From Methanococcoides methylutens (GTDB lineage Archaea; Halobacteriota; Methanosarcinia; Methanosarcinales; Methanosarcinaceae), in contig NZ_JRHO01000010.1 in the NCBI RefSeq assembly GCF_000765475.1, positions 1-64,000 on the forward strand: a stretch of DNA of 64,000 nt. Reading direction: 5' to 3'. The notes under the pieces were generated by a model, which searched no databases, was not told where the DNA came from, and saw only the letters and a list, made by a program, of their open reading frames with translations. Shown piece after piece: positions 48,459 through 53,876 of this stretch (position 1 is the stretch's first letter; every line of letters starts with the position of its first letter). The translations under genes and the position numbers were made by a program.

Positions 48459-48486
48459 TTACTTACTTACTTACTTACTTACTTAC
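48459..48486. repeat. (TTAC)7 tetranucleotide repeat overlapping a stop codon
   Basis: Seven TTAC units, 28 bases, covering the TAA stop of sdhB on the minus strand (48483-48485). On the minus strand it reads GTAA repeated, so changes in copy number leave the stop intact and alter only the 3' untranslated region. Confidence 0.9.
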
Positions 48487-49250
48487 TCTTCTTTTTTCTT
48501 ATTTGTATTTATCCTGTTGCGAAGTTCATTTATCCCTAACGTAGGTGCCACTTTTTTGGGACAGACTGCAACACACTTGTATACAGTGTCGCAACCCCAT
48601 ACGCCGGATTCTGAGTTCACGATTTCAAGCCTTTCTTTTCTATTGGATTCATTTTCCCTTGGGTCAAGATCAAAACGCCATGCTTTTGCAAGAGCTGCCG
48701 GTCCGTAGTATTTCCTGTCCCTTGCTGCAACAGGGCATGACCCGTGGCATATTGCACATAGGATGCAGTTAGTATATTGTTCAAGCTTGACCTGCATTTC
48801 CTGATCTATAATGTTTTCCTTTTCAGGAATATCATTCTTCATCTCAAGCCAGGGTCTTACACTTTCCAGCAAATTATAGAATGGATTCATGTCTACTACA
48901 AGGTCACGTATGACATTCAGGTTAGGTAGTGGTTCTATCAATATTTCATTATTGTCTGTTTCAGTCTTCTTGTTAGCTATCATGACCTCCGAGTTCCCTT
49001 CATTCGTAGGTTCCTTCCTCAGTTCAGATACCTGTACCTTGCAGGCAAGCCTTGGTACCCGGTTGATGAGCATTCCACAACTTCCACAGACAGCACCTCT
49101 GCAAGAGTATCGGAAAGTAAGGCTTCCATCAAGTTTTTCCTGGACAAAGAACAATGCTTCCAGCAGATTCATTCCCTGCTTGTCCTCAACCTCAAAGAGA
49201 TCATACCAGACCTTTTCACCATCCTGTCTTCTGATCTTTAGCTTGATCAT
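48483..49250 (-). CDS. sdhB: succinate dehydrogenase/fumarate reductase iron-sulfur subunit
   Basis: 255 residues. CRGAVCGSCGMLIN (50-63) with a later C binds [2Fe-2S]; CILCAICHGSCPVA (about 163-176) and CDTVYKCVAVCPKKV (about 222-236) bind the other two clusters. No membrane-anchor subunit gene (SdhC/D) and no CCG domain as in TfrB is found nearby. It overlaps sdhA by one base. In methanogens the enzyme supplies succinate for biosynthesis; the electron donor is unclear here (thiol or other). Confidence 0.9.
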   Translation of the reverse strand: MIKLKIRRQDGEKVWYDLFEVEDKQGMNLLEALFFVQEKLDGSLTFRYSCRGAVCGSCGMLINRVPRLACKVQVSELRKEPTNEGNSEVMIANKKTETDNNEILIEPLPNLNVIRDLVVDMNPFYNLLESVRPWLEMKNDIPEKENIIDQEMQVKLEQYTNCILCAICHGSCPVAARDRKYYGPAALAKAWRFDLDPRENESNRKERLEIVNSESGVWGCDTVYKCVAVCPKKVAPTLGINELRNRINTNKKKEE

Positions 49251-50926
49251 CAGTAAATCCTCCTCTGTGGCTGGAAGATCGTTATACTAACATCTTTGTA
49301 TTCCAGTCGTGGACCTTCCGGTGCGGGATAGGCGAGTGTGTGCTTTAACCAGTTCTTGTCGTCCCTTTCAAGGAAATCGGTCCTGTAATGTGCACCCCTG
49401 CTTTCCTCACGTACCAATGCTCCTAATGCGATGACATGTGCCAGGTCCAGCATACCCTTAAGCTCGATGGCATTGAGCAGTTCCAGGTTGAATTCCTTTG
49501 CTTCTGTTCTGACTTTCAGTGACTTTGCTCTCTCTTCCAGATCTTTGATATCCCTGACCGCCTGCTCGAGTTTGTCGTGTTCCCTGAAAACACCTACGTT
49601 CTCCTGCATGGTCTGTTTCAGTTCCTGACTGATGCTGGAATAGCTTTCTCCATCTTTCCCCATCATTTGAGAAATTGCAGTTCTCTCACTATCAAGTGCC
49701 TTTGTCAGGGGAGCATCGGTCGCTTCTTCAAGTGATGCAATATAATCTGCTGCATGTACTCCTGCCCTTCTTCCAAAGACCACGGTGTCAAGGAGTGAAT
49801 TTCCTCCCAGTCGGTTTGCACCATGAACACTTATACAGGCACATTCCCCAACTGCATAGAGTCCTTTTGCAGGGGTTGCACCGTCCTTGTTTGAGGTGAT
49901 GCCACCCATAGAGTAATGCTGCCCGGGCTGTACGGGAATAGGTTCCTCGACCGGGTCAATGCCTATAAAATCGATACAGATCTGCCTTATTCCTGCCAGT
50001 CTTTCTTCGATAAGGTCCTTTCCAAGGTGTGTGATGTCCAGATGGACATAACCTCCGGGGAATCCCCTTCCCTCGTCGATCTCCTGCTGGATAGACCTTG
50101 CAACAATATCTCTGGGTGCCAGTTCCATTGATGAGGCTGCGTAGCCTTTCATGAACCTTTCATGGTCCTTGTTGTAGAGGTATCCGCCTTCACCCCTTGC
50201 ACCTTCGGTGATCAGTATATTAGTGCCCCATAATGTTGTGGGGTGGAACTGTACGAATTCCATGTCCTGGAGTGGTACTCCTGCACGATAAGCAAGACTT
50301 ATCCCGAAACCTTTGTTGATAATGGCATTGGTGGATTTCGCGTAGATTCTCCCATAACCTCCGGTGGCAAGTACTGTAGCCTTTGTCTTGAAAACCTCAA
50401 GTTTGGAGTTTAGCATGTTCATAGCTACAAAACCCAGACACCTGTCATCCTCTATGACAACTTTTGTTACAAGCCATTCCCTGTAGACCTTGATACCAGC
50501 ACGTAATATCCTTTCATGAAGTGTATGAAGAAGGTTGTGTCCGGTCCTGTCCCCTGCATAGCAGGTCCTGGGAAATCCTGCACCACCAAAAGGACGCTGT
50601 GCTATGGTCCCATCATCCTTCCTTGAGAAATTGGTTCCCCAGTGTTCCATTTCAAGAACCCTGTCAGGAGCTTCCTTACATAGTATTTCAACAGTGTCCT
50701 GGTCAGCAAGGTAATCGCTTCCCTTAACAGTATCAAATGCATGCGATTCCCAGCTGTCATTGGAGCCAAGGGATGCATTGATCCCTCCTTGTGCAGCTCC
50801 GGAGTGGCTTCGTATCGGAGGAACTTTTGAGATGATGGCTACGTCCACTCCCTTTTCATGAAGTTCAATAGCACATCTGAGACCTGAAAGGCCGCCTCCT
50901 ATCATTATCACATCATGTGTGATCAT
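49250..50926 (-). CDS. sdhA: succinate dehydrogenase/fumarate reductase flavoprotein subunit
   Basis: 558 residues. FAD loop GGGLSGLRCAIEL (8-20), the flavin-linked histidine region HSGAAQGGINA (41-51), GEGGYLYN, and the active arginine region near HTLAYP-like C-terminal segment. Starts at ATG overlapping the fumarase stop (ATGA) and its stop overlaps sdhB, so the three are one translationally coupled operon. Catalyses fumarate-succinate interconversion. Confidence 0.92.
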   Translation of the reverse strand: MITHDVIMIGGGLSGLRCAIELHEKGVDVAIISKVPPIRSHSGAAQGGINASLGSNDSWESHAFDTVKGSDYLADQDTVEILCKEAPDRVLEMEHWGTNFSRKDDGTIAQRPFGGAGFPRTCYAGDRTGHNLLHTLHERILRAGIKVYREWLVTKVVIEDDRCLGFVAMNMLNSKLEVFKTKATVLATGGYGRIYAKSTNAIINKGFGISLAYRAGVPLQDMEFVQFHPTTLWGTNILITEGARGEGGYLYNKDHERFMKGYAASSMELAPRDIVARSIQQEIDEGRGFPGGYVHLDITHLGKDLIEERLAGIRQICIDFIGIDPVEEPIPVQPGQHYSMGGITSNKDGATPAKGLYAVGECACISVHGANRLGGNSLLDTVVFGRRAGVHAADYIASLEEATDAPLTKALDSERTAISQMMGKDGESYSSISQELKQTMQENVGVFREHDKLEQAVRDIKDLEERAKSLKVRTEAKEFNLELLNAIELKGMLDLAHVIALGALVREESRGAHYRTDFLERDDKNWLKHTLAYPAPEGPRLEYKDVSITIFQPQRRIY

Positions 50927-51639
50927 TTACCCACTCCTGTCATGGTGATGGGATCAAGAAGTTTCTCTACGTCTTTCTCACCCATTATGTTCATCTCCTT
51001 CACTACCTCGATTATGCTTCTGTTCTCCCTGTGTGCAGTGTGTGCGATCTCTGCAGCCTTCTCATAACCTATGCTTGTTCCCAGTATGGTGACAAGAGCA
51101 AGGCTCTGCTTTGATAGTTCCTCACATCGTTCCCTGTTCACAGTGATTCCCCGAAGGCACCTTTCTGTAAAGGAGATCGATGCACCTGTGAGGATCTCTA
51201 TCGAGCTAAGAAGATCATAGGCAAGTACAGGGGTGAATACGTTGAGTTCGAACTGACCTCCCTGTGCAGCCATTGTTATTGTTGTATCATTCCCGATGAT
51301 CTGGAAACATGCCATGTTCAGCATTTCGGCCATCACGGGGTTCACTTTCCCGGGCATGATGGAAGAACCGGGTTGTACTGCCGGAAGGTTGATCTCTCCG
51401 ATACCTGTTCTTGGACCGCTTGAAAGAAGACGCAGGTCGTTTGCGATCTTGATAAGTGTTACAGCAATGCTTCGAAGTGCTCCCGACGCTCCAAGGATGG
51501 CCTCTGCAGACTGCGTGGCCTCAAATGCATTTTGAGCCAGCCTAAAATCCTGGCCTGTGATATGTTCCATCTCTTTTATTGCCAGTTGTCCGAAATCTTC
51601 CGGTGTGTTCAGTCCGGTACCAACAGCAGTGCCTCCCAT
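50923..51639 (-). CDS. fumC: fumarate hydratase class II, C-terminal part (after in-frame TAG)
   Basis: 238 residues from an internal ATG, with the signature GSSIMPGKVNP (about 91-101) of the fumarase/aspartase superfamily. It is the continuation, in the same frame, of the N-terminal part at 51649-52308; only TAG at 51649-51651 separates them (codons S-L-TAG-E-L-N-M-G-G). Together they equal one class II fumarase of about 461 codons. Alone this fragment lacks the substrate sites of the N-terminal half. It overlaps sdhA by four bases. Confidence 0.85.
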   Translation of the reverse strand: MGGTAVGTGLNTPEDFGQLAIKEMEHITGQDFRLAQNAFEATQSAEAILGASGALRSIAVTLIKIANDLRLLSSGPRTGIGEINLPAVQPGSSIMPGKVNPVMAEMLNMACFQIIGNDTTITMAAQGGQFELNVFTPVLAYDLLSSIEILTGASISFTERCLRGITVNRERCEELSKQSLALVTILGTSIGYEKAAEIAHTAHRENRSIIEVVKEMNIMGEKDVEKLLDPITMTGVGK

Positions 51640-51648
51640 GTTCAGCTC

Positions 51649-52308
51649 CTAAAGGCTATCAATGGCAACTTCAAGCCGTTTGATCCCAAGTTCAAGCATA
51701 TGTGCATACCCGGAGAATTCCTGGCCGAGTGTGACCGGCACTGCATCCTGCAGATGTGTTCTTCCGGGCTTGACGATCTCCATGAACTCAGCTGACCTTT
51801 CAGCAAATACTGTCAGCATTTCCACAAGTGCAGGCATGAGCTCTGAATTAATGGTCTCCACAGCAGCAATGTGAATAGCAGTATGTGTAGTATCATTTGA
51901 AGACTGGGACATGTTCACATGGTCGTTTGGGTGTATTATGTCATAATGTCCCTTTTCAACTCCAAGGATCTCAAGTGCCCTGTTGGCAATGACCTCGTTT
52001 GCGTTCATGTTCTGTGATGTCCCTGCACCTGACTGGAACGCATCTACCACGAACTGGTCATCGAACTTACCTTCTCTCACCTCGGATGCAGCTCTGATTA
52101 TGGCTTCTCCCTTTGTGATATCAAGCTTTCCGGCTTCCATATTCGCACGTGCTGATGCCATCTTTATTGCAGCCTGTGCTTTTACAAAAGAAGGGGGCAG
52201 CCTCTGGCGGCTGACCTTGAAATTATGAACTGCCCTTGTTGTCTGAGGGCCATAATAGGCGTCCTCAGGCACTTCCACTTCCCCAAGTGTGTCTTTCTCT
52301 AAACGGAT
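51649..52308 (-). CDS. fumC: fumarate hydratase class II, N-terminal part (no standard start codon, ends at TAG)
   Basis: Contains VMS-type substrate motif NMNANEVIANRA and SQSSNDTTHTA typical of fumarase/aspartase. The expected start RLEKDTLGEVEVPEDAYYG lies upstream of the first possible start (GTG at 52278), but where the ATG should be there is ATC at 52306-52308, four bases after a GGGGGGG run. No ATG, GTG or TTG lies in that stretch. The frame ends in TAG at 51649, where relatives have a leucine-like residue. A decaying gene, or pyrrolysine readthrough with an unusual start. Confidence 0.8.
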   Translation of the reverse strand: MRLEKDTLGEVEVPEDAYYGPQTTRAVHNFKVSRQRLPPSFVKAQAAIKMASARANMEAGKLDITKGEAIIRAASEVREGKFDDQFVVDAFQSGAGTSQNMNANEVIANRALEILGVEKGHYDIIHPNDHVNMSQSSNDTTHTAIHIAAVETINSELMPALVEMLTVFAERSAEFMEIVKPGRTHLQDAVPVTLGQEFSGYAHMLELGIKRLEVAIDSL

Positions 52309-52385
52309 ATAACCCCCCCGGTTATTTATGCTTTTATTTTATAGACCTGCTTTACGATCTTATTTTCTATGATATGCATCAGATC

Positions 52386-53876
52386 TCAGACATGTTCGAT
52401 CTCGGTATGGTCTGAAATTTCGGAATTTGTAGTGCAAAGGTCATTGATGCTTAATTTGTGAACATCATCATTTCCTGTGAGCCTTGCGAAATTTTCAAGT
52501 TCTTCGGTGGATACTCTAAGGAAGTTCTCAAGTTTCTTTGCAGAAATATCGATCTTAAGTCTGGAACGAAGTTCAGGATCCTGTGTTGTGACGCCGACCG
52601 GACATTTTCCGGTATCACATTGCCTGTATTGCTGGCAGGCACACGCCATGAGCGCTGCTGTGCCTATGGCAATTGCATCTGCACCAAGTGCAAGTGCTTT
52701 TGCAAGATCGGAAGATACACGCAGGCCACCTGTGATTATAAGGGAAATATCCTTTATGCCTTTCTCATCAAGGAATTTCCTCGCACGGTAAAGTGCAAAT
52801 ATTGTGGGTATCGATGTTGCATTCTTTACAAATTTGAGTGCAGCAGCAGTTGCTCCTGGTCTGCCATCGATGGTAATGAAATCGGGCTTTGCATAAACAG
52901 CAATTTCAAGGTCAGCTTCGATATTACCTGCTGCCATCTTGATACCGATAGGTTTGCCTCCTGAGGTCTCTCTGAGCCAGTCGACCTTTGCTTTCAGGTC
53001 CTCCTTGCTTCGGATATCGTCAAAATGAGCAGGACTTACGATGTCTGTGCTTTCCGGAAATCCCCTGATCTCCGCCAACTCATGTGTTACCTTCTCAGCA
53101 GGCAGGTGTCCACCCATGCCAGGTTTAGCAGACTGTCCGATCTTGATCTCGATGGCATCCACCTTCTTGAGATTATCTTCGGTGACACTGTATCTGTTCG
53201 GCACATATTCAAAAATATACTTGTGGGCTTTCTCCATGCTCTCCTTGAGGATGCCGCCTTCCCCTGAACACATTGCGGTCTTTACAGCAGCACTTCCCAT
53301 TGCAAGGGCCTGTTTAATTTCACTGGATAATGCGCCATATGACATATGGGTAATGAACACGGGAGTTTCAATAACAAGTGGGTGCTTTGCTTTTGGTCCA
53401 ATGACGGTGTTAGTGTTGACAGCTTCATCCTCGTTAAGAGGTATCTTTGCAAGCTGTGCTCCTTTGATAAGGATGTCATTCCATGAAAGCACATCTTGCT
53501 TTGTCTTCATCGGTTCAAGTATGGATTCACCACTAACAGAGATCTTGTGGATGTCTTCCATGTAGGTTTCAGTAGTATCTGAGGTTCTTCTCCATTCTCC
53601 AAGATAACCACTGATGTCTATTTTTCCAAATTCTGATACTGTGATCTTACTCTTTGTACCACATTTGGGACAGGTAACTATCTCTTCTGAAGTGATCTCC
53701 TCGATCTCTTCTTTTTCAACAGGCATCTGGTGGTTCTTGTCAGCACCACATATCGGACAGCGCCAGTCTTCAGGGAAATCTTCCGGCTTTGTTCCGGGTT
53801 TTATGTCGGTGTTCGAGTCTCCCCTTGTATCATCATACTCAAAAGCGCCACAGACGTTGCATCGATATTCGGTCAT
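52386..53876 (-). CDS. glutamate synthase FMN-domain protein with N-terminal rubredoxin
   Basis: 496 residues. Rubredoxin module with CNVCG and CPICG (5-50), a second CPKC site (about 69), then the glutamate synthase large-subunit FMN/Fe-S domain (100-496) with PGMGGHLPAEKV, GRPGAT and a CACQQYRQCDTGKCPVG cluster motif (about 410-426). Archaeal GltB-like enzymes of this type make glutamate from glutamine-derived ammonia and 2-oxoglutarate; rubredoxin may supply electrons. A separate near-identical rubredoxin lies directly upstream. Confidence 0.88.
   Translation of the reverse strand: MTEYRCNVCGAFEYDDTRGDSNTDIKPGTKPEDFPEDWRCPICGADKNHQMPVEKEEIEEITSEEIVTCPKCGTKSKITVSEFGKIDISGYLGEWRRTSDTTETYMEDIHKISVSGESILEPMKTKQDVLSWNDILIKGAQLAKIPLNEDEAVNTNTVIGPKAKHPLVIETPVFITHMSYGALSSEIKQALAMGSAAVKTAMCSGEGGILKESMEKAHKYIFEYVPNRYSVTEDNLKKVDAIEIKIGQSAKPGMGGHLPAEKVTHELAEIRGFPESTDIVSPAHFDDIRSKEDLKAKVDWLRETSGGKPIGIKMAAGNIEADLEIAVYAKPDFITIDGRPGATAAALKFVKNATSIPTIFALYRARKFLDEKGIKDISLIITGGLRVSSDLAKALALGADAIAIGTAALMACACQQYRQCDTGKCPVGVTTQDPELRSRLKIDISAKKLENFLRVSTEELENFARLTGNDDVHKLSINDLCTTNSEISDHTEIEHV

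Follow-up and report, generated by a model that had tools for sequence, protein, structure and literature searches.

A conserved in-frame TAG codon, probably read as pyrrolysine, in an aspartase/fumarase-superfamily lyase gene of Methanococcoides

A gene for a lyase of the aspartase/fumarase superfamily, encoded in a window of 64,000 nucleotides from Methanococcoides methylutens (the whole stretch of DNA analysed here), is interrupted by an in-frame TAG and has ATC in the place of a start codon. This raises the question whether the gene is decaying or is translated in full, with the UAG read as an amino acid. The explanation that we favour, with a probability of about 0.8, is a functional lyase gene, started at AUC and with the UAG at codon 220 read as pyrrolysine, whose product is likely to be an aspartase feeding fumarate reductase. 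The conservation, the purifying selection, the presence of the pyrrolysine genes and the scarcity of TAG as a terminator have been computed in the current analysis, and from the whole we infer the pyrrolysine, the AUC start and the activity of the enzyme.

The lyase gene, its neighbours and the identity of the enzyme

The features of the locus are collected in Table 1. On re-reading, the coordinates given in the original prediction, the position of the TAG within S-L-TAG-E-L-N-M-G-G and the ATC have all proved exact. A profile search of the source genome (2.51 Mb, 99.87% complete) has assigned PF00206 to this frame with one TAG inside the match, and has revealed no second class II or aspartase-type copy besides this lyase. 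The frame has no ATG, GTG or TTG start and is otherwise intact. The nearest named relative found is Methanococcoides vulcani, whose lyase is 95% identical; a still closer genome (G001) encodes a lyase with 97% identity over the C-terminal half.

Table 1. Coordinates of the features of the lyase locus in the window
Feature	Position	Strand	Remarks
SdhB/FrdB/TfrB-like iron-sulfur subunit	48483..49250	-	TIGR00384, 218.1 bits (cut-off 88)
SdhA/FrdA/TfrA-like fumarate reductase/succinate dehydrogenase flavoprotein	49250..50926	-	TIGR01812, 778.3 bits (cut-off 567.3)
Aspartase/fumarase-superfamily lyase gene	50923..52308	-	461 codons from ATC, TAG counted as a residue; read-through translation
In-frame TAG, codon 220, predicted pyrrolysine	51649..51651	-	same codon TAG in relatives
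Probable AUC start codon	52306..52308	-	ATC in nine of nine species
Shine-Dalgarno-like G-run GGGGGGGTTAT	52309..52319	-	predicted duplex with the anti-Shine-Dalgarno tail
Upstream gene with rubredoxin-like N-terminus and glutamate-synthase (FMN domain) homology	52386..53876	-	NF008730, NF045768

The stop codon TGA of the lyase gene (50925-50923) and the start codon ATG of the sdhA-like gene (50926-50924) share an ATGA overlap on the minus strand, which confirms the earlier observation that sdhA starts inside the lyase stop. This arrangement is conserved, the sdhA-like gene adjoining the lyase gene in all nine Methanococcoides genomes and in the 12 out-group loci inspected. The gene upstream matches NF008730 over residues 177-466 and the rubredoxin family NF045768 over residues 1-54, both below the cut-offs. 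A search of positions 50500-52700 against Rfam has matched no known RNA element.

The gene had been described as a class II fumarase complete apart from the TAG. It is indeed a complete lyase of the superfamily with that one exception, but the family name is doubtful, as the aspartase model is favoured. The aspartate ammonia-lyase subfamily model NF008909 is passed with 624.8 bits against a cut-off of 510, whereas the class II fumarase model TIGR00979 (fumC_II; 580.6 bits, cut-off 664.75) and the aspA model (559.2, cut-off 681.2) are not. The GAGTS, QDAVP, QPGSS and NPVM motifs match aspartases rather than most of the reference fumarases, and the motif SQSSNDT matches fumarases. AspB of Bacillus YM55-1 (1j3u; PRK12273/NF008909) has GAGTS, QDAVP and QPGSS...NPVM in common with the lyase. 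In the tree, the methanogen lyases form a clade that stands apart from the reference aspartases as well as from the reference fumarases. A separate class I fumarase (PF05681) is encoded elsewhere in the source genome and in the relatives, which answers the question raised earlier of another fumarase in the genome. The neighbouring fumarate reductase/succinate dehydrogenase pair fits a route from aspartate through fumarate to succinate. Judged from these comparisons of sequence, aspartate ammonia-lyase is the likelier activity, held with less confidence than the reading of the gene as a whole.

Conservation of the TAG codon and its probable decoding

Codon 220 is TAG in seven of the nine lyase-bearing Methanococcoides species, the source species included. 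The two remaining species have TGG (G008) and CAG (G003), each one step away from TAG, and none of the nine has TAA or TGA, which is unlike what is expected of a working stop codon. No close copy of the lyase was found in a further genome, G006 (2,575,032 bases). In the gene tree the nine Methanococcoides lyases form a fully supported clade with two sub-clades; TAG occurs in both, and TGG and CAG are confined to one of them. The simplest reading of this distribution is an ancestral TAG followed by two changes to sense codons.

The ratio dN/dS, computed for eight species with the TAG codons excluded, falls for the most part in the range of 0.04 to 0.09, before as well as after the TAG, with a single value of 0.21 in the N-terminal half, between two close relatives. 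The corresponding dS ranges from 0.1 up to saturation, which is reached between the two clades. The purifying selection on the C-terminal half indicates that this half is translated and functional. The original prediction had taken the TAG and the ATC as two lesions suggestive of decay; aligned relatives do carry the same TAG and the same start, both are conserved in the genus, and the sequence before and after the TAG is under strong purifying selection.

The source genome encodes, in one cluster (L117), a tRNA-Pyl(CTA) with CUA anticodon followed by pylS, pylB, pylC and pylD, so that the pylTSBCD set for which a check had been proposed is present. The tRNA and pylS (423 bits against a cut-off of 178) have been identified by model searches or ARAGORN in the source genome and PylB by TIGR03910 in the relatives; pylC and pylD have been assigned from gene order and sequence only. 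Two dimethylamine methyltransferase (MtbB) genes of the same genome have one in-frame TAG each. These have been used as the control, the monomethylamine methyltransferase genes being split at contig ends and thus uninformative.

As noted earlier, no other gene in the window stops at TAG, the lyase being the sole TAG-ending gene called. The use of TAG was further surveyed, by means of a simple gene caller, in stretches amounting to about 860 kb from three Methanococcoides genomes (part of each). Called genes end in TAG in 7 of 318 cases in the source genome (G000), 2 of 153 in G001 and 2 of 145 in G006 (11/616 in total), and in nearly all of these the coding sequence goes on in frame beyond the TAG. 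The continuing genes include the lyase, a histidine-kinase-like gene, a UvrD/PcrA-like helicase and a large repeat-rich protein; one further call is probably an antisense artefact, and the clear true TAG end is that of pylB. In G013, which belongs to another genus, the figure is 17 of 100, mostly with short non-coding extensions, and in G020, of a third genus, 2 of 115, both with extensions that look non-coding. The rarity of TAG ends and their continuation in frame suggest that Methanococcoides treats UAG largely as a sense codon.

Several other genes with an in-frame TAG have been encountered. The UvrD/PcrA-like helicase gene (L127 2163-3080; G000:C14) has it in the source genome only, the other Methanococcoides orthologues having CAG or CAA at the site, except for GAA in G002; being so confined, this TAG looks recent, unlike that of the lyase. 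A single in-frame TAG is also present in the histidine-kinase-like gene, in a gene of about 204 codons that by eye resembles the zinc/MTHFR-C type, and in the repeat-rich protein (G000:C9 117946-118974 and 54391-54615; G000:C14 31458-36533). A biotin-carboxylase-like gene of G001 (C1 166518-167753), by eye like pyruvate carboxylase subunit A, continues in frame for 87 codons beyond its TAG.

All 11 Methanococcoides genomes have a pylB gene that ends in TAG, as do six genomes from other genera. This TAG lies mostly one base before the start of pylC (L117 8460-8456 in G000:C9; L199-L211 in the other Methanococcoides), and read-through would add 42 residues in Methanococcoides. A pylB ending in UAG is already known in M. 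mazei, M. acetivorans and M. burtonii, and shows that UAG terminates too in pyl-bearing methanogens (PMC2933860). Read-through of a reporter in M. acetivorans likewise reached only 20-30% (PMC2933860), and both observations count against the pyrrolysine reading of the lyase. UAG must terminate at least once, or else PylB is sometimes extended. The breadth of this occurrence suggests a possible feedback by the supply of pyrrolysine.

Column 220 is highly variable, with Lys, Gln, Trp, Glu, Ala, Gly, Leu, Tyr and Arg in the relatives; it is often Lys, including in several out-groups. An AlphaFold2 model of the lyase (mean pLDDT 88.7, pTM 0.89) places residue 220 directly past a long helix formed by residues 194-219. 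The variability of the column and its place after the helix suggest that a bulky derivative of lysine should be tolerated here, and a pyrrolysine at 220 is unlikely to be catalytic.

The probable AUC start

The frame begins alike in the nine species, with a G-run followed by TAT or CAT and by ATC-CGN. The out-group genes open with ATG-GTG-CGN or similar; their ATG aligns one codon upstream of the ATC, at the TAT/CAT of Methanococcoides, and their second codon GTG aligns with the ATC itself. The ancestral ATG has apparently become TAT/CAT, with ATC replacing the second codon. The duplex predicted between the G-run and the anti-Shine-Dalgarno tail, which we take to be AUCACCUCCU, has an energy of -10.4 to -10.8 kcal/mol in the nine species. 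Over the long ORFs of the source genome the median is -6.1 and the 5th percentile -10.9, which places the lyase G-run near the strongest 5%.

The six closest species have no ATG, GTG or TTG in frame from the upstream in-frame stop down to the conserved N-terminus, and an upstream start has been rejected for want of such a codon common to their clade. A frameshift through the G-run has also been considered and rejected, as the spacer varies in length and sequence and an upstream ATG in another frame of the window is not conserved. The clade of G003, G008 and G009 has an in-frame GTG a few codons upstream of the ATC, so in these species the start is less certain and may not be AUC. AUC is a rare and weak start codon, which is a point against initiation at this site; on balance translation probably starts at AUC.

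Competing readings, precedents and biological meaning

Conservation of the TAG, the selection on the gene, the pyl genes and the rarity of TAG stops together make pyrrolysine by far the best reading. The original prediction had offered it as the alternative to decay, and it is now strongly supported by the pylTSBCD cluster, the near absence of TAG stops and the relatives with the same TAG. In the proposed mechanism, ribosomes would bind the G-run as a Shine-Dalgarno sequence and start at AUC; the UAG at codon 220 would be decoded by tRNA-Pyl(CUA) charged by PylRS, inserting pyrrolysine at a variable site; translation would go on to the UGA in the overlap with the sdhA-like start; and the lyase, most likely an aspartate ammonia-lyase, would supply fumarate for the fumarate reductase whose genes follow immediately. 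The codon is likely to be of neutral origin, in an ancestor within Methanococcoides, and would be tolerated because members of the genus in effect use UAG as a sense codon.

Other readings account for parts of these observations. An improbable one is a split enzyme, in which UAG ends an N-terminal half of 219 residues and re-initiation at the ATG at 51639 yields a C-terminal half of 238 residues that pairs with it. The TAGGAG-N6-ATG of the source gene, with the ATG nine bases after the TAG, resembles a Shine-Dalgarno start, and the site is just past the end of a helix in the AlphaFold2 model. However, the Shine-Dalgarno-like stretch is TAGGAA in four of the seven TAG species, the ATG encodes the Met of a motif that is common in uninterrupted out-group genes as well, and the site holds a sense codon in two species and TAA or TGA in none, although these two make up about 98% of the called gene ends. 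Still less probable is the reading of UAG by an ordinary near-cognate tRNA in place of tRNA-Pyl. The column does tolerate Gln, Trp, Lys and Tyr in the relatives, and the two non-TAG species carry CAG and TGG; yet the genome encodes a dedicated tRNA-Pyl(CUA) together with PylRS, and its MtbB genes depend on the decoding of UAG.

The stop codon and the missing standard start would suit a decaying pseudogene, for which relaxed selection and lesions confined to one lineage are expected. Both oddities are common to other species and genus-wide, dN/dS is far below 1 on either side of the TAG, the frame shows no other damage and the operon is conserved, and we regard decay as very improbable and have rejected it. 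The G-run beside the start is in principle prone to sequencing error. The same TAG and ATC bases recur in independent assemblies of other species, so these codons are not due to chance or to misreading, and an error of sequencing or assembly is scarcely credible. It is unlikely, though less so than any of these readings, that the two conserved codons, UAG and AUC, jointly serve as a deliberate throttle on translation of the lyase.

The lyase would be a new and unusually long-lived example of a known phenomenon, with Thg1 as precedent. An in-frame amber codon in the gene for this tRNA-His guanylyltransferase of M. acetivorans has been described by Heinemann et al. (2009), as related in PMC2933860. 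There the UAG is found in M. acetivorans only (PMC2933860), whereas that of the lyase is common to seven species of a genus, and the lyase, unlike Thg1, belongs to central metabolism. MtmB, MtbB and MttB have a single conserved in-frame UAG read by means of pylTSBCD, as is proposed for the lyase, and two MtbB genes are present in the source genome. The methylamine methyltransferases carry their pyrrolysine in the active site and have kept the UAG (PMC2933860, PMC8211752), whereas the lyase column is variable, with Gln or Trp in two species. According to a 2021 review the known pyrrolysine proteins comprise the methylamine methyltransferases, some transposases and Thg1 (PMC8211752; see also PMC2933860). 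The titles and abstracts of literature naming both fumarase and pyrrolysine mention no fumarase with a Pyl codon, and fumarase is absent from the main text of the earlier pyrrolysine surveys checked.

The near absence of TAG stops and the occurrence of TAG inside unrelated genes of Methanococcoides resemble the 'Pyl code', in which some archaea reportedly read all TAG as pyrrolysine, as is said to have been described by Kivenson et al. in 2025. The lyase fits that picture, and what stands out is the persistence of its TAG across the genus together with the common AUC start. It offers a natural, long-conserved UAG in a gene of central metabolism unrelated to methylamine methyl transfer, and allows a direct test of whether Methanococcoides simply uses UAG as a sense codon. 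Genes of this kind can be misannotated by automated pipelines, either as a pseudogene or as a pair of fragments. Few examples of AUC initiation would be comparable among archaea if the start common to the nine species holds, and it would serve well for testing the rules of initiation. If the throttle did operate, the output of the lyase, and with it the branch from aspartate through fumarate to succinate, would be tied to the level of charged tRNA-Pyl and hence to methylamine metabolism.
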